The notes under the pieces were generated by a model. The model did no database searches. It was not told the DNA's origin and worked only from the letters and a program-made list of their open reading frames with translations. Shown piece after piece: positions 6,586 to 36,367 of a stretch of DNA of 37,519 nt. Source of the DNA: Pseudomonadales bacterium. GTDB taxonomy: Bacteria; Pseudomonadota; Gammaproteobacteria; Pseudomonadales; Azotimanducaceae. Each line of letters starts with the position of its first letter. Positions within the stretch are counted from its first letter, which is position 1. The translations under genes and the position numbers were made by a program. Location: positions 1 to 37,519 of the forward strand of contig JANQMF010000054.1 in NCBI GenBank assembly GCA_028280225.1, in the 5' to 3' direction.

Positions 6586-7911
6586 CTAACCGACCCTGAC
6601 CGGTAACTGCCAGCAGGTATGCATCTCCCCGATGGTGAGGGCACGTAAGCCCGGCGTGGCGCCCTCCCTGAGTTCCAGGTCCGGTATATTTTCAACCAGG
6701 ACCATCGAGGCGGTCACCACCGTATCCCGGGTCAGGGCATATAGACTGCGGGGCCGGTCTTCAGGCACCGCCGGATGAATCGAGGGTTTGCCCAGACCCA
6801 GGGCAATACCCGATGCCAGACCATCAGCCCGGTACTGGCCCCGCGGCTCCCGCTGACAAAGATCCGGCCGGTCCACAACAAAGCTGTTGGGGTTGGTGAA
6901 AACTCGCGGGTCACGGTTAGCCGCTGCCGCGGAACACACCACCAGGGCACCTTGCGGCAACAATCTGCCGAAACGCTCCACCTCGTGACGGGTAAAGCGC
7001 GGTGCACCGAGGACCGGTGGGCAGTAACGCAAAGCCTCCAGATAGGCCAGTTTCATCATACGCGGCGCTGACCGGGCCTTGGCATATTCCGCCTCATGGG
7101 TGAGCAATAAGTACCACAGGTTTGCCGTTGCGCCGTGTACGGTCTCATGATCTCTCTCCAACAACGTGACAGCCACATCCGCCCCGGTGACCGGGCCACC
7201 CTCAACATCCAGGCCGGCAAGAACGGACAACAGATTCGCATCGTCAGTTTTTTTGCGTTGCGCCAACAAACCGGTAAAGTAGTCAGCCAGCTCCGTTAAC
7301 GCCACCCGGCCTTTAACTTGCAGATCCGGCCGCCAGCCGGTGCCGCGCTGGGCCTGCCAGTAGCGGCTGAAAAAGTGTTCCCGGTCTGCATTGCTGATGC
7401 CCAGGGTCCCGGCCAGAATTTCCAGAGGCAATCTCGCCGCAAAGTCTCTGGCCAAATCAGCATTGCCGGCCGCCAGCATGGCCCGGCTGAGGCGTGTAGC
7501 CACCTCCTCTACATGGTTGTCCATGCCTTGGGCAAAGGCAGTCACCACCTCCGGGTATGCCCCCAAGTCCCGGCCAAATGTTTCCATACCGTAAAACCAC
7601 AGTTTTGGGCGGGTCTCAAAGTTAGCGTCATCGGTAAACACCGAAGTGACATCGTTGTACCGGCTCATCCAGTAGCAATTTCCCAACCAATCTCTGTAAC
7701 AGGGGTAGTTCTCACGCAGAATTTCCAGCAGGGGATAGGGGTTGTGCAGATAGTCATCGGACAACAGTTGAATGGGTTTAATCTTTTCCGTACTTTGGCC
7801 CACCCGTTCGCGCTGGTGCACCTCATAGGTCCGATAACCCTCGCCGGTGCCGGACCGCTGTTGCCGGATGACCACCCCATTCCGGCCTTCTACCGGTATC
7901 TGCTCCGTCAC
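6586..7911 (-). CDS. Cytochrome P450-like protein without the haem-ligand cysteine
   Basis: A 441-residue protein that follows the bacterial P450 fold. It has the N-terminal NPYPLLEILRENYP, an I-helix reading RDHE256-T257-VHG, and the K-helix ExxR in LEALRY. At the haem loop, where family members read FGxGxHxCxG, it reads ALGLGKPSIHPAV, placing I378 where the axial cysteine should be; no other cysteine is nearby. The frame continues normally to the stop, so a frameshift is not evident. The start is GTG at 7911, three bases after the stop of the upstream canonical P450, so both are co-transcribed. P450 homologues without the cysteine that act as partners are known (EryCII, DesVIII); a similar helper role here is inference. 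Confidence 0.82.
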   Translation of the reverse strand: MTEQIPVEGRNGVVIRQQRSGTGEGYRTYEVHQRERVGQSTEKIKPIQLLSDDYLHNPYPLLEILRENYPCYRDWLGNCYWMSRYNDVTSVFTDDANFETRPKLWFYGMETFGRDLGAYPEVVTAFAQGMDNHVEEVATRLSRAMLAAGNADLARDFAARLPLEILAGTLGISNADREHFFSRYWQAQRGTGWRPDLQVKGRVALTELADYFTGLLAQRKKTDDANLLSVLAGLDVEGGPVTGADVAVTLLERDHETVHGATANLWYLLLTHEAEYAKARSAPRMMKLAYLEALRYCPPVLGAPRFTRHEVERFGRLLPQGALVVCSAAAANRDPRVFTNPNSFVVDRPDLCQREPRGQYRADGLASGIALGLGKPSIHPAVPEDRPRSLYALTRDTVVTASMVLVENIPDLELREGATPGLRALTIGEMHTCWQLPVRVG

Positions 7912-7914
7912 CCG

Positions 7915-9357
7915 TTACCCCTGTAAGTCAAATTCTATCCACAAGTCCCGCACCGAGACCAGGCCCATGGGTGCCGGGCGCACACCGTCAATATCCCGGG
8001 GCATTTTGTCTTCCCGAATACACGGGTTGCGCATATACCCGGCAAGAATGCGTGATCCCACCACCGCTTCCTGGTGGGATATCCATGCACCGGGACACAG
8101 ATGCGGCCCTACCCCAAAGGCCATGTGGCTGCACTTGCCGTCTTTGCGATAGCCGCTGCGCAGCAATTTCCCGGAATACAGATCGTTGCGGAAAATGTTA
8201 AAGGTCTCCGGCTCGGCGAATATACGTTCATCATGGTTGGCGGAAAAATCCACCATATTCATCAGCGAACCCGCCGGTACATGGACACCGTGCATTTCCA
8301 CATCAAAGGTATTGTGCCGGGGTTGCCCGCCAATGGACGTTGAGTGGCGCAACATTTCATGAAAGGCACAATTCCAGTTGTCATCGTCCGCCAGAACCGC
8401 CGTGTACTGGTCCGGATGCCTGAGCAACAAACACCAAAGGTTCATGATTGCCCCCCGGGTGGTTTCACCCCCGCCGCCGACAATCAGCGCAATATTGGAA
8501 GTGATTTCCTCGGTGGACAGGTAGTCACCGTCCAACTTGGTTTCACACAATTTGCTGATGATATCCTTACCCAGTTTGTTGCCTTCCCCATCGTATAGAT
8601 AGGTGGGCTGTTCGCGCCTGGCCTCAACAATACCCGCAACATAGTCCTCAAGGTGCTGGCGGGCTTGCACACCCTGTTTGTGAGTTTCCGACCCGCCCAG
8701 CCCACTCATCATGGAGTTGTACCAGTAGTAAAAGTCCGCCTGGGCTTCGCGGGGGAAACCAAGCACCTCACACACCACGCGAATGGGAAATTCGTTGGCA
8801 AACATGTGGCCAAGCTCAACGGTACGCCTGCCGCCCTCATCAATGACATAGGGTGAGCCTTCCGCCGCCGCAACATCCCAGGCGGTGATCATTTCCCGGG
8901 CCAGGCGTTCGATGGATGGAATGCGATTCTGCAAAGACTTGCCAACCAGATGCTGGCCGTACAGGTTGCGGCGGCGGCGGTGTTCTACCCCGGATAATTC
9001 CAGTTGGGTATTTCCCAGCACGCCACTTGAACTGCCCTTGGGGATGGTATTAAACCCCTCGTCGTCAAAATAACATTCCGTAATATCGTCGTAGCGGGTC
9101 ACCCAATAACAATTGTGCAATTTATCGTGATACACCGGGTAGTGATCCCGCAGGATTCGATAGTAGGGATAGGGGTTACGAAAAAATTCCGGCGAATCGA
9201 AGATGCGCGGATCGATCAGGGGGGTGCCATCCGCTGCCGTCCCCATGTCTACCGCCTGGCCTTCCGGCATCAGCGGAAAGGGACTGACTTTTGTCGGCTG
9301 GTCTTTTGTCGGCTGGTCGGGTTCGACGTCCCGGGTCAATTCCTCATAAAAGGACAT
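7915..9357 (-). CDS. Cytochrome P450 monooxygenase
   Basis: A 480-residue soluble bacterial P450 with all landmarks. The I-helix is GGGGETTRG, the K-helix ExxR is seen in HEMLRHS, and the haem loop is FGVGPHLCPGAW with C421 as the thiolate ligand. It has a longer N terminus than most, including a repeated DQPTK segment near residue 14. It would need electrons from a ferredoxin; the divergent ferredoxin gene 151 bases away is the obvious candidate. A GGGGAGG Shine-Dalgarno precedes ATG 9357. Upstream lies a promoter-like segment shared with the gene at 10936. It probably hydroxylates a hydrophobic pathway substrate. Confidence 0.93.
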   Translation of the reverse strand: MSFYEELTRDVEPDQPTKDQPTKVSPFPLMPEGQAVDMGTAADGTPLIDPRIFDSPEFFRNPYPYYRILRDHYPVYHDKLHNCYWVTRYDDITECYFDDEGFNTIPKGSSSGVLGNTQLELSGVEHRRRRNLYGQHLVGKSLQNRIPSIERLAREMITAWDVAAAEGSPYVIDEGGRRTVELGHMFANEFPIRVVCEVLGFPREAQADFYYWYNSMMSGLGGSETHKQGVQARQHLEDYVAGIVEARREQPTYLYDGEGNKLGKDIISKLCETKLDGDYLSTEEITSNIALIVGGGGETTRGAIMNLWCLLLRHPDQYTAVLADDDNWNCAFHEMLRHSTSIGGQPRHNTFDVEMHGVHVPAGSLMNMVDFSANHDERIFAEPETFNIFRNDLYSGKLLRSGYRKDGKCSHMAFGVGPHLCPGAWISHQEAVVGSRILAGYMRNPCIREDKMPRDIDGVRPAPMGLVSVRDLWIEFDLQG

Positions 9358-9508: not shown

Positions 9509-9802
9509 ATGACCTTTATAATTGCCAGCGCCTGTGTAGATGTCATGGATCAATCCTGTATTGAAGTCTGTCCCGTTGATTGCATCTATATAGAGGACAA
9601 CGATCGCATGTGTTATATCGAACCAAACGATTGTATTGACTGTGCCGTGTGTGAGGCCGCCTGCCCGGTAGGCGCCATATTTAAGGACAGCGATCTGCCG
9701 GCAGAAGCCCAGGCCTTTCTGGAGATTAACCAGTTGTGGTTTAATAACAAAGATGAGGCAAGGGAGCGGGTGAATCAATTTATGGACAGCGGCCTGGGCT
9801 GA
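9509..9802 (+). CDS. 7Fe (3Fe-4S/4Fe-4S) ferredoxin
   Basis: A 97-residue ferredoxin of the seven-iron type. The cysteine pattern C9, C17, C21-P, then C42-x2-C45-x2-C48-x3-C52-P matches the mycobacterial/Azotobacter-type layout: C9, C17 and C52 would hold the 3Fe-4S cluster, and C21, C42, C45 and C48 the 4Fe-4S cluster. The N-terminal ASACVDVMDQSC is characteristic. Such ferredoxins serve as electron donors to P450s in actinobacterial and proteobacterial degradation clusters. It is divergent from the P450 pair and 19 bases ahead of tetR, so it is probably co-transcribed with the regulator. The Shine-Dalgarno is weak. No ferredoxin reductase is encoded in this window. Confidence 0.93.
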   Translation: MTFIIASACVDVMDQSCIEVCPVDCIYIEDNDRMCYIEPNDCIDCAVCEAACPVGAIFKDSDLPAEAQAFLEINQLWFNNKDEARERVNQFMDSGLG

Positions 9803-9821: not shown

Positions 9822-10475
9822 ATGTCTACCGCCACAGCGATTCGCACTCTGACCCCCAACCAGCAAGAACGCCGCGCACGAATTTTAGGTGCCGCCCGGG
9901 ATCTGGTTGCCCGCCACGGTTACCACGGCATGATCATGCGTGATGTGGCAACCCGGGCCAAGGTTTCCCCAACCACCCTGTATAACTTATACAACACCAA
10001 GGATGAATTGCTGCTTGAAGCATTGCGGGACAGCGTCGCCGACTCGTCCGGACGCGCCGCCCAGGAAACCGAGGATATGGGTTACGAGCGCTTGCTGGCC
10101 CATCTACATTTTTCGGTGGAACAAACACGGGAAGAGCCTGCTTACGCCAAGGCCATTACCCAGGCGCTGGTCCGGGCGGAGCAAGGTGATCAGATTACCC
10201 TGGTGCTGTTCAACGGCACCCGCAGCGCCATCGCCGGCGCCCTGACCGTGATGCGGGACCAGCAGCAACTGCATCCCAAAACTCAAATTGAGCCCCTGGC
10301 CAATGCCCTGCTGGCAGCCTTTTGGGGTAACTATATCCTATGGAGTAAGGGTGAACTGGCTTTGGAAGAGCTGGAGTCCGAGCTGAAGCGAAGTTTTCTG
10401 TCCCTGTTACTGCCCGTGGCTATCGGCGGCACCCAGACCCATATCAGCAACAGTCTGACCCAGTTGCTGCGCTAA
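9822..10475 (+). CDS. TetR-family transcriptional regulator
   Basis: A 217-residue regulator with an N-terminal helix-turn-helix at about residues 38-58 (MRDVATRAKVSPTTLYNLY) followed by the typical KDELLLEAL. The C-terminal ligand domain is helical and variable. TetR repressors commonly control adjacent catabolic genes and are released by a substrate or CoA ester. It lies directly behind the ferredoxin gene and between two copies of a conserved promoter segment (9381 and 10951), which makes those copies its best candidate operators. It ends 11 bases from the convergent SnoaL-like gene with no obvious terminator between them. Confidence 0.9.
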   Translation: MSTATAIRTLTPNQQERRARILGAARDLVARHGYHGMIMRDVATRAKVSPTTLYNLYNTKDELLLEALRDSVADSSGRAAQETEDMGYERLLAHLHFSVEQTREEPAYAKAITQALVRAEQGDQITLVLFNGTRSAIAGALTVMRDQQQLHPKTQIEPLANALLAAFWGNYILWSKGELALEELESELKRSFLSLLLPVAIGGTQTHISNSLTQLLR

Positions 10476-11296: not shown

Positions 11297-12664
11297 ATGA
11301 GCAAGCAACCCTATACCCCTGTCGCACCGGAGGGTCTACAGGACATCAATTTCCTTGATGCAAATCTGCAGAATTGTCCATACCACGCTTATCAACTGCT
11401 GCGTGATGATGCGCCGGTGTGGAAAGACCCTGTTACCGGCTTTTATGTCATCACGCGCTTCGAGGATCTGCGCCGGATCCTGTTAGATACCGAACAGTTT
11501 CGCAACAACATGGCTGGGGGCCAGGGGGGCAGCCGCGACCGCCTGGACGCCGAGCGGGCCAAACGCATGCAGCAGCTTTATCGCGACAATGGGTGGCTGC
11601 CCGCACCCACCCTGGCCGGGCGGGATGATCCGAATCACAAACAAATGCGGGCCATGTTCAACGAAGCTTTCCGCCCCAAGAAGATCAACGCCATGGACCC
11701 CTTTGTGCGGGATACCGCCTACAAATTGATCGATGCCTTTGTAGATGATGGCCGCTGCGACTGGGTTAAACAATATGCGGTACCCCTACCCCTTATTGTT
11801 ATCGGTCAGCAAATGGGGGTTCCCGAGCAGGACATCTGGCAAATCAAGGCATGGACCGACGCCTGGGTGCAGCGTTTGGGAATGATGCAAACCGAAGAAG
11901 AAGAGCGCTGGTCGGTTGAGCAGGAAATTGAAGCCCAGCATTACTTCCAACCTATATTTGAACGTCTCCGCCGGACCCCGGACGACACCCTGCTTTCGGA
12001 AATGGTCAATCGGGTTATCCCGGAGTGGGGACGCCCCTTGAACGACAACGAGCTGCATGCGGAGATGATGGCGGATACTTTTGTCGGCGGTTCCGAAACC
12101 ACCACCAACGCCATTGGCTACGGGATGAAATTGTTGATTGAAAATCCCGAGGTCTGGAACACGCTGAAAGCAGACCCCGACCGGTATCTCAAAACTTTTT
12201 GCGAAGAGGTTGTGCGCCTGGAAGGACCCGTCCAGGGCCTGTTCCGCATTGCCGGTTGCGATATCAACCTGCACGGAGTGACTATTCCCAAGGGGGCCAT
12301 GATCAACATCCGTTATGCCGCGGCAAACCGCGACGAACGGGAATTTGACTGCCCCGCGGACTTGGATCTAGAACGCAGCAAACCCGGACGGCATCTGGGT
12401 TACGGCTCGGGTATCCACCACTGCCTGGGTGCACCCCTGGCCCGGCGGGAACTGTATTGGGCATTTCGCGCCCTGCTTGACCGCGTCGACACTCTCAGGT
12501 TTGCCGATGGTGCCAACGACTTTTCCGTGGCGCCCAACTTTTCTCTACGCGCCATGCAGGAACTGCATATCGAATTTGACCCCCTGCCGGTGTCAAGACG
12601 TATTGACCCGACCAAGGTTGATGCCGAATCCGGCGCCACCGAACTTGGAGACGAAAATGGCTGA
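11297..12664 (+). CDS. Cytochrome P450 monooxygenase
   Basis: A 455-residue P450. The I-helix reads FVGGSETTTN, the K-helix ExxR is EEVVRLE, and the haem loop is YGSGIHHCLGAPLARRE with C376 as thiolate ligand. The sequence is more typical of common bacterial class I P450s than the pair at 6586-9357, so it probably acts at a different position or step. ATG 11297 is the only good start. Its stop overlaps the Rieske oxygenase start by eight bases (ATGGCTGA), so both are made from one message. That coupling suggests consecutive oxidations of the same substrate, an inference. Confidence 0.93.
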   Translation: MSKQPYTPVAPEGLQDINFLDANLQNCPYHAYQLLRDDAPVWKDPVTGFYVITRFEDLRRILLDTEQFRNNMAGGQGGSRDRLDAERAKRMQQLYRDNGWLPAPTLAGRDDPNHKQMRAMFNEAFRPKKINAMDPFVRDTAYKLIDAFVDDGRCDWVKQYAVPLPLIVIGQQMGVPEQDIWQIKAWTDAWVQRLGMMQTEEEERWSVEQEIEAQHYFQPIFERLRRTPDDTLLSEMVNRVIPEWGRPLNDNELHAEMMADTFVGGSETTTNAIGYGMKLLIENPEVWNTLKADPDRYLKTFCEEVVRLEGPVQGLFRIAGCDINLHGVTIPKGAMINIRYAAANRDEREFDCPADLDLERSKPGRHLGYGSGIHHCLGAPLARRELYWAFRALLDRVDTLRFADGANDFSVAPNFSLRAMQELHIEFDPLPVSRRIDPTKVDAESGATELGDENG

Positions 12665-24017: not shown

Positions 24018-24614
24018 CTATTGAGTCTGGTGAATAGCCACCTCAGCACCGCCGGTCTGTTCCACAATCAGCTCCAATCCCCCACCTACCTGGGATAGAT
24101 CCGCTGAATTGTCGTCACCGGTCTGTAACAGGGTCATTTTATTGCCCGCACCATGCTGCGCCAGAGTGCTGAGGTTGTTGACCCCAAGCTGGGCTAACGA
24201 CAACACATTGCTGCCGGCCTGGCGAATGAGTGCGGAATTCGATACACCATTCTGCACCACATAGGCTTCGTTGCCCGTGCCATAGTAGCCGTACTGCATA
24301 ATGGTGGAGTCATTGGCCTCACCGGTGCTGTCTAAACTGACATAGTTCCGTGCGTAGCCATGTTGTTCTATCCGGTGCTGTTGATCCGCACCGTCTGTCC
24401 TGGCTTCTACCACATTATTCCGCTGGGTTTGCAGAACAAAAATGTTGTTGTAGCTGCCGATTTGAGAAATGTTGACCCGGCTGTCCAGAGCATTCTGCTG
24501 CTGCACCTCAACCCGCTGCTGCGTGCCTTGAGAAACCACATTACTCTGCGTTCTGGCGTACCCCTGGCCGGGCAATCCCAGTGACAAGATAAAAAACACA
24601 AGTATTATTCTCAT
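24018..24614 (-). CDS. Curlin-repeat protein, CsgB-like minor subunit
   Basis: A 198-residue secreted protein with a signal peptide (IILVFFILSLGLPGQGYA) and about seven imperfect curlin repeats of the form NxxxxxQxGxxN (for example VNISQIGSYNNIFVLQ, STLAQHGAGNKMTLLQTG). The repeats are less regular than in the two larger curlins, and the chain ends EVAIHQTQ. In known curli systems CsgB nucleates CsgA and is the shorter, more divergent curlin, so this is the best CsgB candidate. A ten-pair hairpin separates it from the preceding curlin gene. The alternative is that it is simply a third fibre subunit. Confidence 0.82.
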   Translation of the reverse strand: MRIILVFFILSLGLPGQGYARTQSNVVSQGTQQRVEVQQQNALDSRVNISQIGSYNNIFVLQTQRNNVVEARTDGADQQHRIEQHGYARNYVSLDSTGEANDSTIMQYGYYGTGNEAYVVQNGVSNSALIRQAGSNVLSLAQLGVNNLSTLAQHGAGNKMTLLQTGDDNSADLSQVGGGLELIVEQTGGAEVAIHQTQ

Positions 24615-24633
24615 CCTAATTGTCCTAAGTTGT

Positions 24634-24657
24634 ACCGGAGCCCCGCAGGGCTCCGGT
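24634..24657 (-). terminator. Perfect hairpin between curlin genes
   Basis: ACCGGAGCCC and GGGCTCCGGT form a ten-pair stem with a four-base loop in the 57-base gap between the 390-residue curlin and the CsgB-like gene. No U-tract follows on the minus strand, so partial termination or message protection is more likely than full termination. Confidence 0.6.
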
Positions 24658-24671
24658 CAAAGTGCAGTCCA

Positions 24672-25844
24672 TCACTGCGCAACTATGGCCACGTTACCGG
24701 AGCCCACTTGATTAACCGTCGACACATTCCCATGGGTAGACTGGGTAACGTCTGCAACGTTGCCCTTGCCATCCTGGTTGATGTACGACCGGTTGTTGTC
24801 ACCACTCTGCAATACATAGGCGGTATTGAACGCCCCGTACTGCAGAATTTCAGACAAGTTGTGGTTTCCGCTCTGGACCACGGAAGCATAGTGATTTTCG
24901 CCGTCCTGACTTATCAGCGATTGGTTACCAAGTCCGGATTGATCAACCACGGCGCCATGCCCGGCACCTGAGTTCTGGTTAATCGTGGAGGTATTTTCAT
25001 CACCTCCCTGGGTCACCAGGATCAGGCTGCTGCCTGACAGGTTGGTGACATACGATTTGTTGGCATGACCAATCTGATCCACCGTGACCGAGGAGCCATC
25101 CCCGTCCTGGAGCACATCAGAATAGTTATTCTCGCCAATCTGCATAACCCAAACGGATCCGCCAATACCGCCTTGACTCACATAGGACTCGTTGTGCGAA
25201 CTCTGAGAAACGGTAGCGCTGTTACCAGCCCCACCCTGTTTCACATCCGAGCTGTTTGCATCACCGGACTGCGTGACATCTGCGGTTGCAGAGTCTGCCG
25301 TCTGGTCAACAACGCTCTTGTTTGCAGCGCCTGTTTGAGTCACGTTGGCGACATGGCCGCCGACCCCGGTCTGCATGACGTCGGAGACATTTCCGTACGT
25401 AGCACCGTTGCCTGCCTGGCCTTGCTCAACGTTGGCAATACTGTTATCCCCCGTCTGCAGTACGTTAGACGTTTGTTCGTCATCGTACTGAGTGACGGTG
25501 GCAGTGTTGCCATTACCGGACTGGTCTATGGCTGACTTGTTCTGGACAGCCACTGTTTCTGCAGTCTGGTAAACCGTTGCAGTATTGTCGTTACCGCTTT
25601 GATTGATATCCGAATCGTTCACAAAGGCTGTGCCGGTACCGTCATCTGCTTGAGTGACGGTTGCGGTATTAAAGTCGCCGGATTGATCCACCAGGGAATT
25701 ACTACCCGTTGTTGATGCGGTTTGCGCCACATCCACGGTGTTGTCCCCGCCTTGGATAATCGTGCTGCTTGAATTAGCCGCAAGCACAGCCCCGGAAATG
25801 CTGAGAAGAGAAACTAGAACGACTGTGGAGATTACCTTCTTCAT
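24672..25844 (-). CDS. Large curlin-repeat amyloid subunit (390 residues)
   Basis: A secreted curlin with a signal peptide ending AVLAAN and about 16 curlin repeats of 18-24 residues (for example NTATVTQ, NKSVVDQTADSATADVTQSG, NNRSYINQDGKGNVADVTQS). The repeats show the Q/N ladder and S-x-V-x-Q-x-G-x-x-N spacing of CsgA, which itself has five. Expected fold: an elongated beta-solenoid assembling into extracellular amyloid after export through CsgG. The last repeat, ADVTQSTHGNVSTVNQ, is nearly the same as in the 503-residue curlin, suggesting a conserved capping or docking repeat. AAAGGA precedes ATG 25844. Confidence 0.9.
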   Translation of the reverse strand: MKKVISTVVLVSLLSISGAVLAANSSSTIIQGGDNTVDVAQTASTTGSNSLVDQSGDFNTATVTQADDGTGTAFVNDSDINQSGNDNTATVYQTAETVAVQNKSAIDQSGNGNTATVTQYDDEQTSNVLQTGDNSIANVEQGQAGNGATYGNVSDVMQTGVGGHVANVTQTGAANKSVVDQTADSATADVTQSGDANSSDVKQGGAGNSATVSQSSHNESYVSQGGIGGSVWVMQIGENNYSDVLQDGDGSSVTVDQIGHANKSYVTNLSGSSLILVTQGGDENTSTINQNSGAGHGAVVDQSGLGNQSLISQDGENHYASVVQSGNHNLSEILQYGAFNTAYVLQSGDNNRSYINQDGKGNVADVTQSTHGNVSTVNQVGSGNVAIVAQ

Positions 25845-25863
25845 ATCTTAGTTCCTTTGATCA

Positions 25864-25887
25864 ACTCCGGGGGATAGCCCCCGAAGT
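25864..25887 (-). terminator. Hairpin between the two large curlin genes
   Basis: ACTCCGGGGG and CCCCCGAAGT pair over ten bases with one mismatch around the loop ATAG, in the 52-base gap between the 503- and 390-residue curlin genes. Like the hairpin at 24634, it may set relative subunit amounts. Confidence 0.55.
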
Positions 25888-25896
25888 CACTTCCCT

Positions 25897-26830
25897 TTAT
25901 TGGGTCACCACAATGAAACTGCCAACCGTTGCCGTCTGATTAACAACAGAATTGTTGTTATTCGTAGACTGGGTAACATCAGCGGTATTGCCGGCAAGAT
26001 CCTGGTACACAGCGGAGTAATTGCTGTGACCGCTCTGGGTAACATAGGCAGTGTTGCCATAACCAAACTGCTCTACGTATGAGTCGTTCCAGTTACCGGA
26101 CTGATTCACCTTAACCAGCAGGCTGTCACCCGCTTGCACAACCTTAGAGGTGTTGTGGTTGCCGGACTGTTCAACAAAGGTTGCGGTATCACCACCGGCT
26201 TGCAGCACAAGTGAGCCGTTGTCGCTACCAAGCTGGGCAACGTTAACCAGACCAAAGTCGCCGCTGTAGCCGTTGTACTGTCCAACAACAGACTCGTTGC
26301 GGTGACCAATTTGAGCAACGTTAACTAATGCGCCGGAGCCCAGTTGACCAACCAGTGACTTGTTGCGGTTACCCACCTGAACAACATTTACACCTGCCAG
26401 TGCGGCAAGTTCCAAAATCGCGGACCGGTTGTGGTTACCGTCCTGATAAACACTGATGCCGGCATACTCACCAACTTGCTTCACGATGGATCCGTTGTCG
26501 TTACCGTACTGGGTGACGTACACGGATTCGATAACCCCAAACTGCCCAACATAGGAATGGTTGCCGGTGCCGCCTTGCTTAACAACAACCTCTGCCAGAC
26601 CCGTAATCTGGGTAACGTCAGATACATTGTAGTGGCCGTACTGGGTGACACTGACACTGGACGCTTTGGCGACCTGATCTACGTTGGAGTTGTTATAGGT
26701 GCCATCCTGGTAAACAGACACGGCAGACCCATAGGCAAGCTGATCAACATAAGAGTAGTTTCCGGTACCATGCTGGCCAACGCTCACGTAGCTCTTGGCA
26801 CCATCCTGGTATACTTCCGAGTTGTTGTCG
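25897..26830 (-). repeat. Array of 66-base curlin-coding repeats
   Basis: The 3' two-thirds of the large curlin gene is a head-to-tail series of diverged 66-base units, each coding a 22-residue beta-arch. One unit, around residues 375-401, carries five extra residues (GYSGDFG region). DNA identity between units is low but the coding pattern is regular, so the array is old rather than freshly expanded. Confidence 0.7.
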
Positions 26831-27408
26831 TGACCGTACTGAATAACATACGTCTCATTGTCGTAGCCGTACTGTTCTACTGAAGACTTGTTACAGCAAC
26901 CGCCCTGATGAACATAGACATAACCCTTTCTACCGCCCTGGTATACCCAGGAGTAGTTGTTAGTCCCAAACTGATACACATGCGCATCGTTACCACGGCC
27001 GGTCTGTAAAATACCAGATTCATTGCCCCAGCCTTCCTGGTAAGCAGACGCATAGTTTCTGTTACCCGGCTGCACAATTTTAGACTTGTTAGGCGCCGCA
27101 CCCGGATGGGTGTTGTACTGGCCTACTGAAGCCTCATTTTTTTCGCCGGTCTGCTCGATGTAACTATGGTTAACCACATCGTGCTGAGAGCCGCCCGGGG
27201 ATGACCCCTGCTTGACCTTTGCGCTGTTCTCAGTGTTGTACTGATCGATGTCTGAAATAGATTTCCCACCTTGAGTACCGGTTTGATCAACCTCTACATG
27301 ATGTGGGCCCCCGTACTGGTCGATGGTGCTTTCCGAATTATTCGCAAACACCCCTCCAGATAGTGTCAGTGCCGCTCCGGACACCATTGATATAAGTAGC
27401 TTTTTCAA
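25897..27408 (-). CDS. Very large curlin-repeat amyloid subunit (503 residues)
   Basis: A secreted curlin with a signal peptide (ISMVSGAALTLSGGVFA) and about 20 repeats. From about residue 200 onward these are almost exactly 22 residues long (for example SYVSVGQHGTGNYSYVDQLA, then SAVSVYQDGTYNNSNVDQVA). An irregular N-terminal part (residues 22-110) precedes them. The repeats are rich in tyrosine (recurrent QYG). C171 and C172 are its only cysteines, placed in a turn. At 503 residues it is more than three times the length of E. coli CsgA. The start codon is TTG at 27408, preceded by GGGAG; no ATG fits as well. It is the first curlin after csgG and probably a major structural subunit. Confidence 0.9.
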   Translation of the reverse strand: MKKLLISMVSGAALTLSGGVFANNSESTIDQYGGPHHVEVDQTGTQGGKSISDIDQYNTENSAKVKQGSSPGGSQHDVVNHSYIEQTGEKNEASVGQYNTHPGAAPNKSKIVQPGNRNYASAYQEGWGNESGILQTGRGNDAHVYQFGTNNYSWVYQGGRKGYVYVHQGGCCNKSSVEQYGYDNETYVIQYGHDNNSEVYQDGAKSYVSVGQHGTGNYSYVDQLAYGSAVSVYQDGTYNNSNVDQVAKASSVSVTQYGHYNVSDVTQITGLAEVVVKQGGTGNHSYVGQFGVIESVYVTQYGNDNGSIVKQVGEYAGISVYQDGNHNRSAILELAALAGVNVVQVGNRNKSLVGQLGSGALVNVAQIGHRNESVVGQYNGYSGDFGLVNVAQLGSDNGSLVLQAGGDTATFVEQSGNHNTSKVVQAGDSLLVKVNQSGNWNDSYVEQFGYGNTAYVTQSGHSNYSAVYQDLAGNTADVTQSTNNNNSVVNQTATVGSFIVVTQ

Positions 27409-27420
27409 AACTCTACTCCC

Positions 27421-27432
27421 TTAACATGTTAA
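27421..27432. promoter_or_regulatory. 12-base palindrome before the large curlin gene
   Basis: TTAACATGTTAA is a perfect palindrome 12 bases upstream of the TTG start, next to the ribosome-binding site. It could be an operator within the leader. No matching regulator is known here. Confidence 0.35.
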
Positions 27433-27798
27433 CGGAGCCGCGAGACTCCATATTGCAAGCTCAGCCAACCCGGCCGGACATGCGTTTTGCGAAAAATACG
27501 GCCACCGGTTTCGCGTGCCGACAGCTGACGGGAATAGATAGGACAAGGGGAACACGCCGGTGCGTTTTGACAGGCATAGTGCATATCGATACACTCCGCC
27601 CGCAATAAACGCGGCCCAGGCGCGTCCACTTGTTGGGTTGGTTCCCCGTGGACCTTCCCACTCTGGCCTACCAGCGTTTTGACGCCAAATCATCTGCGCT
27701 GGTGGGCCGACCTTCTTTGGGTGACTTACATCAACTTTTTACACTGAAATAAGTTAGCTCCCTTTGTTTGCTTGTTCGTTTGTTCTTGCCATTGTCTT
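27433..27798 (-). other. Gene-free leader between csgG and the curlin genes
   Basis: A 366-base gap that probably carries the promoter and leader of the curlin genes. It holds a long stem (27665-27708) and a shorter GTCCAC/GTGGAC pair (27624-27653). Short frames in it show no protein character. I could not identify a convincing sigma-70 promoter or a CsgD-type site. Confidence 0.5.
27665..27708 (-). terminator. 12-base stem-loop downstream of csgG
   Basis: GGCCTACCAGCG and CGCTGGTGGGCC pair over 12 positions with one G-T/C-A exception, around a 20-base loop. It begins about 90 bases after the csgG stop. There is no U-tract, so it may be an attenuator, a stability element or a dyad operator. 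Confidence 0.45.
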
Positions 27799-28812
27799 TT
27801 ACTTGGCACCAGCCCCTCCCGCAGCGGTAACAGGCACCTGCGGAGTGGGCAACATTTGTCCCGGTCTGGGTTGATAGTGATTCATTGCCGTACTGTTACG
27901 GCAGGTCACCGAGGGCCGGTTACCATTTCTATCCAGGGGTACGGTGACCTTCTTTAACGGAATATCATCCCGCTCCGAAAAATAACGGCGCATCAGGTTA
28001 TCACCCTCAGCTTCATTGGTGGCAATACACCACAGGTCCTGCATCGACCCTTCCAGAATCAGCGCATACAGCGCGGTTTCGATGGCACGCTGTAAAGCCA
28101 GCTGATCCGGTTCGTTGTAGGTAATACCGGTTTCCGCCTCCAACAATTCCTGGAAAGAGACATACCTGAAGGCATCCGCGCCGTAGGCAATGGACGAAAT
28201 TGACTTTCTGACGCTGACCGACGAGAGCACTTCCCCGGTCTTTACACTGACCGCGCGCAAATAGATGGTAACCGTATCTTCCCGGTATTGAGTTTGCCCA
28301 CCCACACCTAAGAAGCGCGCGCCAATGCCGCCGGACTTGGTATTGGTATCAAACCCGATGATCCCGCCCTCTAACAACATACCGGCAAACAACAGCGGCG
28401 GCAGCGCCTGGGGGTTGATGGTTTTCTCACCCAGATAACTGGCGCGCATTTCACGAATAACCGCCCGTTCGCGTAACAGGTTGTCCAACTTTTCCCGTTC
28501 TATAACGGTAAACCAGGACCGTTCACCCGCTTCGTGCAGGGCTTTGACAAGTATAGAGGTAGCACCCTGGGTGACCGCCCGGGACAGGGTCTGAGCACCG
28601 TCCGTGGGTTTAAACTGTCCCGTTTGATCGGTAAAGCCATACACCGCTACAGGCACCTTCTGTCCTGCCGGTGGCAAAGACCGCAGAATTTCCCCCGCAT
28701 CGGTCCTGCCCTGCACCTTGGATTGATAAAATGAATCGCCGGCGTTTGCGACACACCCGCTCAGAACTACCGCGGACAACAGTGCCGCTAAGAGCCTTAC
28801 TCCCCTTTTCAC
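27799..28812 (-). CDS. csgG: CsgG curli secretion lipoprotein
   Basis: A 337-residue CsgG-family protein. A lipobox (VVLSG-C20) predicts acylation and outer-membrane insertion. The core has the CsgG pattern: VAVYGFTDQTGQFKP, ALHEAGERSWFTVIEREKLDNLL, then LLEGGIIGFDTNTKSGG, TVTIYLRAVSVKTGEVL and a C-terminal IETALYALILEG. CsgG forms a nonameric pore that exports curlins. It is longer at the C terminus than E. coli CsgG (277 residues), with a Pro/Gln tail (HYQPRPGQMLPTPQVPV). The start is GTG 28812 with GGAGG upstream, four bases from the csgF stop. Confidence 0.95.
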   Translation of the reverse strand: MKRGVRLLAALLSAVVLSGCVANAGDSFYQSKVQGRTDAGEILRSLPPAGQKVPVAVYGFTDQTGQFKPTDGAQTLSRAVTQGATSILVKALHEAGERSWFTVIEREKLDNLLRERAVIREMRASYLGEKTINPQALPPLLFAGMLLEGGIIGFDTNTKSGGIGARFLGVGGQTQYREDTVTIYLRAVSVKTGEVLSSVSVRKSISSIAYGADAFRYVSFQELLEAETGITYNEPDQLALQRAIETALYALILEGSMQDLWCIATNEAEGDNLMRRYFSERDDIPLKKVTVPLDRNGNRPSVTCRNSTAMNHYQPRPGQMLPTPQVPVTAAGGAGAK

Positions 28813-28815
28813 AAA

Positions 28816-29259
28816 CTAACCCTCCGTTAGAAGCGGAACAATAACTTCAGTGACACTGCCATCCAGATTATTGGTGATGGTTAAGGTGACACTTTCAATT
28901 CCACGTACAAACGATATCTCTTGATCGCCAAATTGAATCAAACCGGTGTCCTGGGCGTTTTCGCCGAAGATTACATCGGTAATTTGCGTTGCCAATGCAG
29001 ACAACAGACGGCTTTGGAGCGTGCGGACAAACTGTGCCGCCGGATCGTTGCGGTCTTCGGCATCCGGATCTTCATGATCATTCTGCGCATTGGCCAACCC
29101 AAGCAGATGGGATGAGTTAAAGGGGTTCCCCCCAAAGGAAGGGTTATTGAATCGGAACGTTTGGTCCGAGGCAAAGGCATTTGCCCCAAACAGCATCGAC
29201 GCCGTACAAATGAGTCCCGCAAACAGTTTTGATTTTGGACTTTTAACCGGATTTAACAT
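28816..29259 (-). CDS. csgF: CsgF curli assembly protein
   Basis: A 147-residue secreted protein with a signal peptide ending NAFAS and the hallmark mature N terminus QTFRFNNPSFGGNPFNSSHLLG, split by QNDHEDPDAEDRND from the later domain. In CsgF this N-terminal peptide inserts into the CsgG pore while the rest nucleates curlin at the cell surface. GGGGGA precedes ATG 29259. It is the first gene of the curli operon, immediately followed by csgG. No csgE lies beside it, unlike in E. coli, Pseudomonas and Shewanella, where E, F and G are neighbours. Confidence 0.93.
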   Translation of the reverse strand: MLNPVKSPKSKLFAGLICTASMLFGANAFASDQTFRFNNPSFGGNPFNSSHLLGLANAQNDHEDPDAEDRNDPAAQFVRTLQSRLLSALATQITDVIFGENAQDTGLIQFGDQEISFVRGIESVTLTITNNLDGSVTEVIVPLLTEG

Positions 29260-30659: not shown

Positions 30660-31818
30660 CGTTTTTAAACCCCTCGGACCAACTGCTGAGGGGCACAAGT
30701 CGTCCGTTCTTAACCTGGGTTGGCCAGGTCAGGCCCAACCCCCGCCGGCTTATTCCGCTGACCATACCCAGTCCGGCATCCCGCAAACCATTTACACCCC
30801 GCACAATGGACGCCCGGCTCAGGTCACGGCTTCTTTCCAGTCCGGCCACTAGAATCCGCGCAGACAAAAACCCTTCCAGGGATACAAAACCCGGCACGGC
30901 ATCCGGATCAAATTCCCTTAGCACACGCCGGTAAAAAACCAGTTCGTCAGCATTCCCGGTATAGTGGGGTACCACCTGGGAAAACAAGACACCTTCAGCC
31001 TGTGCACCCAAGTCAGCCAAGACAACTTCAGCACCGGTAAAGGACAAGCCAACATATTGAGTTTGCCGCCAAACGTCCCGGGCCAGGGTGATAAAACGGG
31101 CGGCTGCTTCCGGGGCTGCAATCATGACAACAATCCTGGGCGGTTCAGGCCGCCGCATTAACCCGGCCAGCGCACTTTCGACATGATTGGTATTACGGGC
31201 ATATTTGCCGAATAACAGTTCATTGCCGAAACCCCGGCGCTTAAACGCTGCCACGGCGTTGGCATAACCGCCGAAACCAAATGCGTCATCCTGGATCAAA
31301 AAACCCACATGCCGGGGAGATATCCGGGCGGCATAGATGCCCGACACAATCGCCTCAATTTCCTGAGCGTAACTTGCGCGAACGTTGACGATATAGGGAT
31401 TTGGAGGGTATTCCCGCAACACCTGAGTACCCGTAAAGGCACCAAAAAACAGGGTTTCTTGTGCTACCGCAACCGGGGCGGCCACCACCGCCGTGGGTGT
31501 GCCGACAATTCCCGCTACGGCGGCTACGCGCTCCTCCCGGATCAGCGAACGTACGTTAAGAGCTGCAGCCTCTGGTTCGTAACCGTCGTCTTTAACCACC
31601 AGTTCTAACGGGTGCCCGTCCACCCCGCCACTTTTATTGATATGGTAAAAGTAGGCTTCATAACCTTGCCTTACCCCACGCCCAAGCCTTGCCGAGGGAC
31701 CCGACAAGGCTGTAGACATACCAATCTTAAGGTTCTTTTCTTCTCCGTGATGCGCCCAGGCCACGGAGCAGCCCACCGGGGTTAACAAGACAAACCACAC
31801 AAACACGGGCAAGGGCAT
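30652..31818 (-). CDS. Periplasmic substrate-binding protein, amino-acid type
   Basis: A 388-residue periplasmic binding protein with a signal peptide (VFVWFVLLTPVGCSVAWA) and the family I/Leu-Ile-Val-type layout: IGMSTALSGPSARLGRGVRQGYEAYF, then VDGHPLELVVKDDGYEPEAA, VAAVAGIVGTPT and HVGFLIQDDAFGFGG. Such proteins bind amino acids, amides or related anions for an ABC transporter or a sensor. No permease or ATPase is encoded here, so a sensing or delivery role is likely. The start shares bases with the cusA stop (TGATG), tying it to the RND metal pump operon, an unusual partner. Confidence 0.88.
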   Translation of the reverse strand: MPLPVFVWFVLLTPVGCSVAWAHHGEEKNLKIGMSTALSGPSARLGRGVRQGYEAYFYHINKSGGVDGHPLELVVKDDGYEPEAAALNVRSLIREERVAAVAGIVGTPTAVVAAPVAVAQETLFFGAFTGTQVLREYPPNPYIVNVRASYAQEIEAIVSGIYAARISPRHVGFLIQDDAFGFGGYANAVAAFKRRGFGNELLFGKYARNTNHVESALAGLMRRPEPPRIVVMIAAPEAAARFITLARDVWRQTQYVGLSFTGAEVVLADLGAQAEGVLFSQVVPHYTGNADELVFYRRVLREFDPDAVPGFVSLEGFLSARILVAGLERSRDLSRASIVRGVNGLRDAGLGMVSGISRRGLGLTWPTQVKNGRLVPLSSWSEGFKNDG

Positions 31819-34800
31819 CAGGCTCCCTCCTTACTTTGCAACCAGCCAAACTGACGCCCCTGGTGGTACACCAGCGGCAGGATAATCAGGACAAGCAGCA
31901 AAACCGTCAGCATGCCTCCTACCATGGGGGCGGCAAGGCGGCTCATGATCTGTGCACCCGTCCCTTCACCATACATAACCGGCAATAAACCCACTATGGT
32001 GGCCACCGAGGTCATCATCACCGGACGCAGACGGCGGCATGCCCCTTCAACAACCGCCTGGCGATAGCCATCAGCGGTTTGTGCACCCGCACAGGCCTGT
32101 TTGAGGTATTGCAGCATGATTACACCGGTTTCCGCGGCAATACCCCCCAGGGCAATAAGGCCTACCGCAACCGCCACGGAAAAGTTATAGCCTTCAAGGT
32201 AGAGCAGCCACAGCGCCCCGACAACGGCAAAGGGCAGGGTGGCCAGAATGATCATCACGTCCAGCATATTCCGGAAGTTGGCATACAACAGGAAAGTGAT
32301 CACCAGCAAGGTGACCGGTACAATGACCTTCAGACGATCTTCTGTCCTTTGCAGATATTCAAACTGCCCGGCCCAGCGTATGGAATATCCGGGCGGCAGC
32401 TTCAACTTTTGCCTGACCAGACTTTGTGCCGTGGCCACGTAGTTGCCAATGTCGATACCTTGGATGTCGACGTAGGTCCAACCGTTGAGTCTGGCATTTT
32501 CACTCTTGATGCCCGGTGGTCCGTTTGCTATGGCGATATCAGCCACTTCCCCCAGCGACAACCTTTGGCCGCTGTGGGTGATAATGGGCAGCAACGCCAT
32601 ATCTTCCGGCGAATTTCGATAGGCTTGCGGATAACGCATATTGACCGGATATCGCTCCGAACCCTCCACCGAATAAGTGACATTGGTACCACCGATGGCG
32701 GTTGCGATAACCTGCTGAATATCTTCAACATTAAGCCCGTACCGGGCTGCCGTCTCGCGCCGGATATTCACTTCAACATATCGTCCGCCGGCAACCCGCT
32801 CGGAATAGACCGAGGCCGTTTGCGGAAGCTGTTTGAGAATGTCTTCTAAGTCCCGGCCAATTTTTTCTATCGTATCCAGATCAGGACCGGCTACCTTAAT
32901 ACCCACCGGCGTCTTGATACCGGTGGCTAACATATCGATACGTGTTTTTATCGGCATAACCCACGCGTTGGTCAGCCCCGGCAGTTGTACCAGGGCGTCC
33001 AGTTCCCGGCGCAGCTTTTCCGGGGTCATTCCGGGGCGCCAGGTCTCCCGGGGTTTAAATTGAATAAAGGTTTCGATCATCGTCAGCGGTGCGGGATCAG
33101 TGGCGGTCTCCGCCCGGCCAACTTTGCCGAATACCGTCTTCACCTCGGGAACGCTGCGAATGAGTTTATCGGTTTGTTGCAGAATCTGCCGGGCCTTGCC
33201 GATGGAAACACCCGGATAGGTACTTGGCATATACATCAGATCACCTTCATCCAGCGGCGGCATAAATTCGCTGCCTATTTGCTGATAAGGAAAATAGCTG
33301 CTGGCCAGTACCGCCACGATGCCCACGGTAACCCACCTTGGGTGTTGCAGCATCCAATTCAGCACACAGCGGTAACCGGCAACCAGATAACGGTTCAGGG
33401 GGTTGTCCAACTCACTCTTAATCTGCCCACGTATACAATAGCCAATGAGGACAGGCACCAGGGTAATGGACAACAAGGCAGCACCGGCCATTGCATAGGT
33501 CTTGGTATAGGCTAACGGCGAAAACATGCGGCCTTCCTGGGCTTCCAGGGCAAAGACCGGCAAAAAGCTGACGGTGATGATCAGCAGACTAAAAAAAAGT
33601 GCGGGGCCCACCTCGCGCGATGCATCTGTAACCTGCCGCCAGCGGTCGGCATGGGGGTTGCGCTCCGCGTGTTTGTGCAGATTTTCAACACAGACAATGG
33701 CGCCATCTATCATGGTGCCAATGGCTATGGCCAGCCCTCCCAGGGACATGATGTTGGCATTCATACCCTGTAGATAAATCAGCACAAAGGCCAGCAGAAT
33801 ACCCACCGGCAGGGCAATGACGGCAACCAGGGCCGAACGCAGATGGAACAGAAACAGAGCACAGATGATTCCCACCAGAACAAGTTCCTTACCCAGGGTG
33901 CGCCACAAATAACCCACCGCGTTTTCGATCAAGGCAGAACGATCATATACCGTGACCACCTCAACCCCGTCGGGCAAGCCGCTCTGCAATTGCTGCATTT
34001 TTTCCCTTACCCGCCGGATGGTTGCCTGGGCATTTTCCCCATAGCGCATGACAACAATGCCGCCAACGGTTTCACCAACCCCGTTCAGCTCAGCAATGCC
34101 ACGCCGCATTTGCGGCCCAATGGTTATCTCCGCGATATCCCGCAACATGATGGGAATGCCGTTGCGGCTTAACCCCAAAGGCACCTGGCGCAGGTCTTCA
34201 ATACCCTGAATATAGCCGCTGGCACGCACCATGTATTCAGCTTCAGCCATTTCGATTACCGATCCGCCTACCTCCCGGTTACTGCGTTGAATAGCTTGTT
34301 GGACGTGCGCCAACGGTATACCGTAGGCGCGTAGCTTGTCCGGTTCTACAATCACCTGATATTGCTTAACCATGCCACCCACGCTGGCGACTTCGGATAC
34401 ACCCTCAACCGCTTGCAGTTCAAACTTAAGGAACCAATCCTGAATCCCGCGCAACTGGCCGATATCATGACTGCCGGTGGGATCAACCAGGGCATACATG
34501 TACACCCACCCCACCCCGGTGGCGTCCGGCCCTAATTGAGGTTGGGCTGCCGCCGGCAAGTTGGGTTCCGCCTGCCGCAGGTACTCCAACACCCGGCTGC
34601 GGGCCCAGTAGATATCCGTATTGTCGTCAAATATGACGTAGACATAAGAATCGCCAAAGAAGGAGAATCCACGAACGGTGGTAGCCCCCGGCACCGAGAG
34701 CATGGCTGTGGACAAGGGGTAGGTCACCTGGTCCTCAACAACCTGCGGCGCCTGGCCGGGATAGGCGGTCTTAATGATCACCTGAACATCAGACAGGTCC

Positions 34801-34919
34801 GGAATGGCATCTACCGGTGTCTTAACCAGGGCGTACAAGCCAAATGAGACCAAAACACCACAGGCCATCAGGACAAAAACCCTGTTTTTCACCGACCAGA
34901 GGATCACCCATTCAATCAT
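31818..34919 (-). CDS. cusA: Heavy-metal RND efflux pump, CusA-like
   Basis: A 1033-residue HME-type RND transporter with about 12 membrane helices. D405 in TMIDGAIVCVEN matches the proton-relay position of E. coli CusA. M655 and M663 in MPIKTRIDM-LATGIKTPVG resemble the copper/silver-specific stretch, so monovalent copper or silver is the likely cargo. The start MIEWVILWSVKNR is typical. It overlaps cusB by ATGA and the downstream binding-protein gene by TGATG. The pump works with CusB and an outer-membrane factor to expel metal from periplasm and cytoplasm. Zinc/cobalt specificity (CzcA) is less likely but cannot be excluded. Confidence 0.92.
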   Translation of the reverse strand: MIEWVILWSVKNRVFVLMACGVLVSFGLYALVKTPVDAIPDLSDVQVIIKTAYPGQAPQVVEDQVTYPLSTAMLSVPGATTVRGFSFFGDSYVYVIFDDNTDIYWARSRVLEYLRQAEPNLPAAAQPQLGPDATGVGWVYMYALVDPTGSHDIGQLRGIQDWFLKFELQAVEGVSEVASVGGMVKQYQVIVEPDKLRAYGIPLAHVQQAIQRSNREVGGSVIEMAEAEYMVRASGYIQGIEDLRQVPLGLSRNGIPIMLRDIAEITIGPQMRRGIAELNGVGETVGGIVVMRYGENAQATIRRVREKMQQLQSGLPDGVEVVTVYDRSALIENAVGYLWRTLGKELVLVGIICALFLFHLRSALVAVIALPVGILLAFVLIYLQGMNANIMSLGGLAIAIGTMIDGAIVCVENLHKHAERNPHADRWRQVTDASREVGPALFFSLLIITVSFLPVFALEAQEGRMFSPLAYTKTYAMAGAALLSITLVPVLIGYCIRGQIKSELDNPLNRYLVAGYRCVLNWMLQHPRWVTVGIVAVLASSYFPYQQIGSEFMPPLDEGDLMYMPSTYPGVSIGKARQILQQTDKLIRSVPEVKTVFGKVGRAETATDPAPLTMIETFIQFKPRETWRPGMTPEKLRRELDALVQLPGLTNAWVMPIKTRIDMLATGIKTPVGIKVAGPDLDTIEKIGRDLEDILKQLPQTASVYSERVAGGRYVEVNIRRETAARYGLNVEDIQQVIATAIGGTNVTYSVEGSERYPVNMRYPQAYRNSPEDMALLPIITHSGQRLSLGEVADIAIANGPPGIKSENARLNGWTYVDIQGIDIGNYVATAQSLVRQKLKLPPGYSIRWAGQFEYLQRTEDRLKVIVPVTLLVITFLLYANFRNMLDVMIILATLPFAVVGALWLLYLEGYNFSVAVAVGLIALGGIAAETGVIMLQYLKQACAGAQTADGYRQAVVEGACRRLRPVMMTSVATIVGLLPVMYGEGTGAQIMSRLAAPMVGGMLTVLLLVLIILPLVYHQGRQFGWLQSKEGA

Positions 34920-36367
34920 GCGCCCGGCCCCAATACATCCAGTTGGGTAATGCGGAACTCACCGGCTTGAATGGTAAAGGTAAACAGGATATCGGTGTTC
35001 GGATGTATCCCTTCCAAGGCAACGCCTTCGTCCACCAGAAAGTTCATTGTTTTACCCGGCCGCGACCATTTCACGATGGGATCGTGGGCGATCCGCAACA
35101 CCCTTTCCGCTGGGTAAACCGCCTTAACGGTGCCGGTGACCGATGCTTGTTGCAGTTGCTCCGCGTGGCCGTCAATACGCTTGAAGTCGGATTGTTTGCT
35201 GGATTCAGAGTCGATGAGAAATTGCGCTGAGGTCACCACCCGGTCACCGTCGTTCAGACCGGCAAGGACCTCCGCGTAACCGGCATCCATGTGGCCCACA
35301 CGGACCGCCACCGATTTAAACCGGCCACCGCCCAGATCCAGTACCACCCGATTCTGATACCCGGTCCGGATAATCGCCTCTTTTGGGACCACCAATGAAA
35401 CCTGTTGGTGGCTTGCGCGAATAGACACCTGGGCAAACATATTGGGTTTGAGCACCAGATCCTCATTATCGAAACGCATTCTTACCCGCACGGTGCGGGT
35501 GGTGGGGTCCAGCACCGGATAAACATAGTCCACGTAACCCCGCCAGACCCTGCCGGAATTGTAATTTAAGGTCATGGTCACCGGATTACCCCGGCGAACC
35601 AGGGCAGCCTGTTGTTCAAATACTTCCGCTTCTACCCAAACCTGGTCCAAACCCGCTATTGACATCATCCGGGTGCCGGGCTGGATATAGTCACCCTGAC
35701 GCACCTTTAACTCTTCCACCACCCCATTACGGGGCGCGGTAAACGTCACCCGTTGCCGGACCTGTTGATGCCGGCTGAGGGTGGCAAGCGCCTGTTGCGG
35801 ATAACCCAGTGAAATCAGGCGGGTTTCGGCAGCCGCCACCAGCGCCTTGTCGTCGGAATTTAGTGCGGTTATGAATTCCTGTTGGGCATTGACCAGGGCA
35901 GGTGAGTAGAGGTCATAAATCGGCTCACTTTCCGCAACAATCTCGCCGTTGGCCCGCACATGCAGCTGTTCAATCCAGCCGGCAACACGGGGCTGCACAC
36001 GGCTCAAGCGGTCTTCGTCATGGGTGACAAAACCCACCGTGCTGATCTGGTGCAAAAGCAGGCGGCGTTCAACCACCGCTGTGCGCACCCCAAGGGTCTG
36101 AATCACTTGGGGAGAAACCGTGATGGTGCCGGGACTGGTATCCGCTTCGCCGGCGTATACCGGAATAAGATCCATACCCATCGGGGATTTGCCCGGTGCG
36201 TCCCGCCGGAAGTTCGGATCCATGGGTGCCACCCAGTATAAAGGCTGGCTGCCGCCGGTACCGTTTTCTTCTTGAGCAGGCTCGTGAACACGCCAATAGA
36301 GATAGGACAAGCCAAGGCCAAGCAGTATACCCGTGGCTAACGCAACCAGGTTTATGGCCCTGCTCAC
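34916..36367 (-). CDS. cusB: CusB-like periplasmic adaptor with C-terminal CusF-like domain
   Basis: A 483-residue membrane-fusion protein. An N-terminal anchor (LVALATGILLGLGLSYLYW) is followed by a heavy-metal-binding motif (YWVAPMDPNFRRDAPGKSPM). Next come the barrel and hairpin domains, including the lipoyl-like GVVEELKVRQGDYIQPGT and VVPKEAIIRTGYQNRV. After about residue 410 a CusF-like OB domain appears (VTGTVKAVYPAERVLRI, then H428-DPI). In E. coli CusF the ligands are a His, a Trp and two Met; here H428 and M441 remain, W434 is shifted and a lysine (K439) replaces one Met. The adaptor links CusA to the outer-membrane channel and hands over metal. It overlaps its neighbours by ATGA on both sides. 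Confidence 0.9.
   Translation of the reverse strand: MSRAINLVALATGILLGLGLSYLYWRVHEPAQEENGTGGSQPLYWVAPMDPNFRRDAPGKSPMGMDLIPVYAGEADTSPGTITVSPQVIQTLGVRTAVVERRLLLHQISTVGFVTHDEDRLSRVQPRVAGWIEQLHVRANGEIVAESEPIYDLYSPALVNAQQEFITALNSDDKALVAAAETRLISLGYPQQALATLSRHQQVRQRVTFTAPRNGVVEELKVRQGDYIQPGTRMMSIAGLDQVWVEAEVFEQQAALVRRGNPVTMTLNYNSGRVWRGYVDYVYPVLDPTTRTVRVRMRFDNEDLVLKPNMFAQVSIRASHQQVSLVVPKEAIIRTGYQNRVVLDLGGGRFKSVAVRVGHMDAGYAEVLAGLNDGDRVVTSAQFLIDSESSKQSDFKRIDGHAEQLQQASVTGTVKAVYPAERVLRIAHDPIVKWSRPGKTMNFLVDEGVALEGIHPNTDILFTFTIQAGEFRITQLDVLGPGA

Follow-up and report, generated by a model that had tools for sequence, protein, structure and literature searches.

A cytochrome P450 homologue without the haem-ligand cysteine, constantly encoded next to a canonical P450, as a candidate haem-less subunit

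EryCII is a P450 homologue that lacks the haem-ligand cysteine and the C-helix and binds a glycosyltransferase via its N-terminal helix, with R26, R31, Q34, and R37 among the contact residues (PMC3391682). In a survey of Streptomyces P450s (PMC7369989), proteins that contained either ExxR or CxG, but not both motifs, were set aside as pseudo-P450s, and surveys of P450s may pass over genes such as the one described here. Among the matches listed in searches of open-licence papers for Cys-less P450s or P450 heterodimers, none had a title or abstract start that described the pairing of a Cys-less P450 with another P450. Soluble P450s of bacteria are generally viewed as catalysts consisting of one chain, with redox partners as their only requirement.

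The window, which is the whole stretch of 37,519 nucleotides that was analyzed, originates from a 4.4-Mb draft genome. It encodes a Cys-less P450 homologue, designated “PSEUDO,” at positions 6586 to 7911 of the reverse strand (441 amino acids, GTG start); all features of this protein given below are on that strand. The gene directly upstream, at positions 7915 to 9357 on the reverse strand, encodes a canonical P450 of 480 amino acids, designated “PART,” with the haem motif FGVGPHLCPG and Cys421 at 8095 to 8097. Three bases (7912 to 7914) separate the PART stop codon from the start of PSEUDO, which confirmed the spacing given in the original prediction. Both proteins were recognized as P450s by Pfam, PSEUDO with a weak score of 32.9 bits against p450 (PF00067), which was nevertheless above the cut-off of 22.8. 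A model of PSEUDO alone, predicted from a 48-row alignment, had a P450 fold (pLDDT, 87.2; pTM, 0.87), and the closest fold found by Foldseek was CYP134A1 (3nc3; E value, 5.8e-20) at about 20% identity.

A scan of a collection of species genomes yielded at least 79 loci with PSEUDO (best 80 of 87), and all 79 were in records labeled MAG. The labels of these at least 79 loci indicated 40 Gammaproteobacteria, 12 Alphaproteobacteria, 22 Actinomycetota (17 of them Acidimicrobiia), and 5 others or unplaced ones, with some of the records evidently being mislabeled. When exact duplicates and two fragments (200 bits or less) were left out, 87 distinct PSEUDO sequences remained, including that of the window, which formed 86 clusters at 98% identity. 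A search of 200 genomes of the home family (E value of 1e-30 or lower) gave 47 matches, three of which (G085, G102, and G105) were ordinary P450s only, leaving 44 genomes with an orthologue; this number counts the genome of the window and includes two orthologues that are fragments (G026 and G174). None of the home-family orthologue rows contained an internal stop. In G744, the seemingly missing C-terminus was accounted for by a stretch of Ns in the assembled sequence. A sample of 398 genomes from the phylum contained either gene, at the thresholds used, in the window's own genome only. None of 609 matches in plasmid records reached 60% identity; the 15 matches listed were 24 to 28% identical and were cytochrome P450s where annotated. 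The residues R27, E30, Q33, R34, R36, E292, R295, Cys352, R361, and D363 were present in 87/87 orthologues. The dN/dS ratio, determined for the 14 closest of 32 locus comparisons, was 0.05 to 0.16 for PSEUDO and 0.02 to 0.10 for PART; PSEUDO is under strong purifying selection.

The features expected of a catalytic P450 were only partially present. Beside the P450 fold (Pfam, predicted model, and Foldseek), the ExxR motif of helix K (E292 and R295, 7027 to 7038) was retained by all 87 orthologues. The I-helix motif TLLERDHETVHGATAN (residues 249 to 264, 7120 to 7167) contained the pair E256-T257, with the Glu occurring in 68 and the Thr in 85 of the 87 orthologues. A cysteine thiolate ligand in an FxxGxxxCxG loop was present in none of them: between residues 369 and 388, the number of distinct orthologues with a Cys was 0/87. 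This established PSEUDO as a P450 homologue without haem-ligand cysteine, as originally proposed from the ExxR motif, the Glu-Thr pair, and the loop. Another cysteine, Cys352 (6856 to 6858), is located ahead of the haem loop (RPDLCQREPRGQYRADG). The C-helix with its propionate-binding residues was missing as well; it was deleted in a MAFFT alignment with PART, and residues 108 to 119 were coil in the predicted model. According to the hhalign alignment, nine additional residues follow the haem loop before the L-helix begins.

The remodeled haem loop from G374 to S389 (6745 to 6792), with the sequence GLGKPSIHPAVPEDRP, was strongly conserved despite the missing Cys. Its length was 16 residues in 87/87 orthologues, and the stretch from R27 to N97 likewise had a constant length of 71 residues in 87/87. 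With a mean column identity of 0.82 to 0.84, residues 346 to 390 were among the best-conserved parts of PSEUDO. The variable part, with a column identity of 0.33 to 0.59 in seven of eight blocks, comprised residues 121 to 240, a stretch that presumably includes the helices that shape the substrate pocket of P450s. The original prediction had placed an Ile at the position of the ligand and had proposed its conservation among homologues as a check. The absence of Cys was upheld, but Ile378 (6778 to 6780) was opposite the lost ligand only when the alignment was ungapped. MAFFT and hhalign each inserted one residue, which placed His379 (6775 to 6777) opposite Cys421 of PART, and in both alignments a Pro shared by the two proteins followed directly. 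Position 378 varied freely (K in 33 sequences, I in 23, R in 16, V in 9, M in 2, and S, A, E, and T in 1 each; n = 87), so that a conserved Ile was not borne out. Position 379 was occupied by H in 66, Y in 15, F in 3, W in 2, and N in 1 of the 87 sequences.

Conservation of the gene pair in other genomes, the second check proposed, was found in every sample that contained PSEUDO. The 82 PSEUDO ORFs of the at least 79 loci included two at contig edges (L099 and L145). Wherever the contig allowed, PART was located directly upstream in the same order and on the same strand (80/80), with L152, in which the longest ORF start overlaps PART, being counted among the 80 pairs. In the 200 genomes of the home family, PART was present in 44/44 genomes with PSEUDO, and PSEUDO was present in 44 of the 45 genomes with PART; in the exception, G018, the contig ended 243 nt past PART. 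Locus L136 belongs to genome G597, which is labeled Ilumatobacteraceae; among 198 genomes from the actinobacterial order of G597, the same 9 carried PSEUDO and PART, adjacent and on one strand. The home-family and order samples overlap partly with the 79 loci. A chance adjacency of both genes was ruled out by the 80/80 loci and by the 9/9 genomes of this order. The FGxGxHxCxG-type pattern was matched by 82 of 85 PART-like ORFs, three of which belong to a solo subfamily (L163, L164, and L167); of the three ORFs off the pattern, two were cut at contig ends and one had an X in the motif, with the Cys being kept. The PSEUDO and PART distance matrices, calculated for 80 pairs, were correlated with an r of 0.65, a value not reached in any of 2000 permutations (0/2000), for which shared descent alone could suffice.

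Relatives of PART with 57 to 64% identity occur without PSEUDO, and G085 and G143 contained the solo type only, which was 62% identical to PART. The PART-like P450s without PSEUDO at L163, L164, L165, and L166 represent a natural control for the pair. When hidden relatives of PSEUDO were sought downstream of solo PART-like P450s, MatE (2) and beta-lactamase-type (2) genes were present instead at the four visible loci. With L162, L163, and L164 left out, the C-helix and haem-loop segments of PART did not have a significant excess of positions that distinguish paired from solo sequences (6/17 versus 28/165; Fisher P = 0.10).

Recurrent neighbors were scored as ORF clusters within 8 kb of the pair at the 79 loci. 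In the window, an Fe-S ferredoxin of 97 amino acids (9509 to 9802, forward strand) is encoded divergently from the pair and is likely the electron donor of PART. A similar small ferredoxin was present in at least 18/79 loci, a number for which only ORFs of 100 amino acids or more were counted. A TetR regulator (9822 to 10475, forward strand) recurred in 13/79 loci, and “P450c,” a canonical P450 of another lineage (11297 to 12664, forward strand), in 20/79. A third P450 was found near the pair in 28/79 loci, with 20 of the 28 ORFs being downstream on the same strand and the Cys motif being kept in 23/23 ORFs of at least 380 amino acids. SDR1/SDR2-like dehydrogenases were close to the pair in 29/79 loci, SDR3-like ones in 14/79, a cluster resembling family III CoA-transferases in 14/79, ThuA in 11/79, and SnoaL in 11/79; Rieske oxygenases formed clusters of 13 and 10 at the 79 loci. 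This neighborhood looks like one for the catabolism of a hydrophobic compound. A glycosyltransferase was absent among the window ORFs scanned, in agreement with the original prediction, and none appeared among the 25 most frequent Pfam families, out of 103, in representatives of 80 of the 204 neighbor clusters without a window homologue. At a larger distance, the reverse strand of the window carries a curli-type amyloid cluster (24018 to 29259) with three curlin-repeat ORFs (24018 to 24614, 24672 to 25844, and 25897 to 27408), followed by CsgG and CsgF. At 31818 to 37488, it also carries RND-type efflux genes, in which CusB/CusF-like heavy-metal domains were recognized, together with a gene for an outer-membrane efflux protein.

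The relationship of these P450s was evaluated with a quick tree of 96 P450 rows (SH-aLRT support only, midpoint root), the resolution of which is limited by long branches. PSEUDO formed one clade (100*) on a long branch. It fell into a group of 67 rows (100*) that also comprised PART, the third P450, and four PART-like rows of the solo type; this group was separate from P450c and the other sampled P450s. The paired PART sequences formed one group (98*) beside the solo subfamily (99*), and the profile of PSEUDO matched PART with an hhalign probability of 100. Judged by the tree and the profile, PSEUDO is a paralogue of PART, the enzyme that it is proposed to serve, and shares its ancestry; it most likely arose within the lineage of PART and the third P450. 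Two PART-PSEUDO pairs were arranged in tandem at L095, L098, and L111. By distance, first copies matched first copies and second copies matched second copies for both proteins, except for the second PSEUDO of L111, which was just as close to the first copy at the same locus (0.71). At L095, the two PSEUDO copies clustered with each other and with L119 (98*), and the two PART copies were split, one of them grouping with L048 (100*). Since the PSEUDO and PART trees of L095 disagree, a clean duplication of one pair unit is unlikely, and this discordance may come from exchange between copies or from separate acquisition.

A constant adjacency behind one working P450 suggests that the two proteins act as one enzyme. 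With a probability of roughly two in three, PSEUDO is a paralogue that has lost both haem and catalysis and that acts as a subunit of PART, binding this P450 and activating or stabilizing it. Both proteins would be made together, probably from one transcript, and would form a heteromer. The conserved N-terminal tail and the former haem-proximal face of PSEUDO would hold PART in a productive state, and this effect may concern its stability, closure of the substrate pocket, or docking of the electron donor. The oxygenation itself would be left to PART, and a ferredoxin like that of the neighboring gene would supply the electrons. Within the tail (residues 27 to 41, RTYEVHQRERVGQST, 7789 to 7833), R27, E30, Q33, R34, and R36 were invariant in 87/87 orthologues, and residues 1 to 38 had a pLDDT below 50 when PSEUDO was modeled by itself. 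Five invariant positions in a segment that is disordered without a partner are what a region for binding PART could look like. Its likeness to the contact residues of EryCII may be convergence or coincidence. A fused-chain AlphaFold2 model of PART and PSEUDO was poor (pLDDT, 67.1; pTM, 0.48). The role of a partner of another P450, as raised in the original prediction, is the best-supported idea due to the constant and conserved pair; the contact of the two proteins is a part of it that we infer. The solo relatives of PART without PSEUDO, the tree discordance at L095, and the nonsignificant enrichment of pair-specific PART residues count against a subunit role. A more far-reaching version, which is tentative, would be an obligate two-subunit P450 in at least two phyla, with PART failing without PSEUDO. 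In this case, PSEUDO may perhaps build part of the redox-docking site of PART or bind a new pocket ligand via Cys352 or His/Tyr379.

Evaluation of the subunit role needs to consider that co-occurrence and adjacency would also follow from action on successive intermediates. PSEUDO may be an independent enzyme with a new non-haem activity, the other possibility raised in the original prediction, or a binding protein; it would share a pathway with PART and use the substrate or the product of PART, but would not form a complex with it. The high conservation of residues 346 to 390, the invariant Cys352, many invariant Arg and Asp residues, and the strong purifying selection would agree with such an activity. 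From one phylum to another, the genes for separate enzymes of a pathway usually become rearranged, dispersed, or lost, whereas PSEUDO and PART were never split in the loci and genomes examined. Moreover, residues 121 to 240, which we take to include the pocket-shaping helices, are the variable part of this protein instead of a conserved one. An independent enzyme is an unlikely explanation. Position 379 leads to a clearly less probable one, PSEUDO as a second haem centre or as an electron relay to PART. His and Tyr are able to ligate haem, two aligners placed His379 opposite the cysteine, His or Tyr was present in 81/87 sequences, and ExxR and the I-helix are retained. This has to be weighed against Phe, Trp, or Asn at this position in 6/87 and against the loss of the C-helix, the residues of which hold the haem propionates in P450s. 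As judged from alignments and model, these two points make it more likely that an aromatic residue at position 379 fills an emptied haem pocket than that a differently ligated haem is present.

An activator of a glycosyltransferase of the EryCII/DesVIII/AknT kind would also have a P450 fold without Cys and C-helix and a conserved N-terminal extension. The score of PSEUDO with TIGR04515 was 82 bits, compared to a curated cut-off of 343, and this was just the 17th of 24 matches in its own genome. PSEUDO also grouped with PART and the third P450, in a tree that had no EryCII row. A helper of this type was rejected due to this score and the neighborhood without glycosyltransferases among the scanned window ORFs and the 25 commonest neighbor families of 103, in line with the doubts of the original prediction; it is very improbable. 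Nothing but the missing Cys would speak for a decaying pseudogene or a sequencing error, which had been named as a refutation together with Cys-bearing homologues. Both are practically negligible, given 0/87 distinct orthologues with a Cys next to intact motifs in PART, a dN/dS of 0.05 to 0.16, and home-family rows free of internal stops; the possibility of a sequencing error is closed.

If the proposed role of PSEUDO as a subunit of PART is true, this P450 clade, which occurs in at least two phyla and was not found without its dead paralogue, would represent a heteromeric P450. The P450 superfamily would then include a natural example of control by a pseudoenzyme. Cys-less P450 helpers would extend beyond glycosyltransferases, and P450s of this kind may fail when expressed alone. 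For experiments, the family offers invariant residues in the N-terminal tail, Cys352, and the prolines of the haem loop.

The known systems resemble PSEUDO to different extents. CYP134A1 (CypX) is the nearest solved fold of the PSEUDO model and the first match of both the PSEUDO profile and PART, albeit at about 20% identity to PSEUDO. It presumably carries haem and its Cys, and this Cys was present in the alignment with PART. The prozyme of trypanosomes, an inactive paralogue that activates AdoMetDC and forms a complex with it (PMC5201418), is similar in principle only; fold and pathway differ, and an activation by PSEUDO would be the counterpart. EryCII, DesVIII, and AknT (TIGR04515) share the P450 fold without the haem Cys with PSEUDO (PMC3391682; for AknT, PMC10054333). 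EryCII shares, in addition, the missing C-helix and an N-terminal element before helix A′ (PMC3391682), which is known to be a helix in EryCII only. In contrast to these helpers, the constant partner of PSEUDO is a P450 and not a glycosyltransferase, its score is far under the TIGR04515 cut-off, and its 79 loci all come from MAG records. By analogy, PSEUDO most likely works like EryCII without belonging to the EryCII-type helpers.
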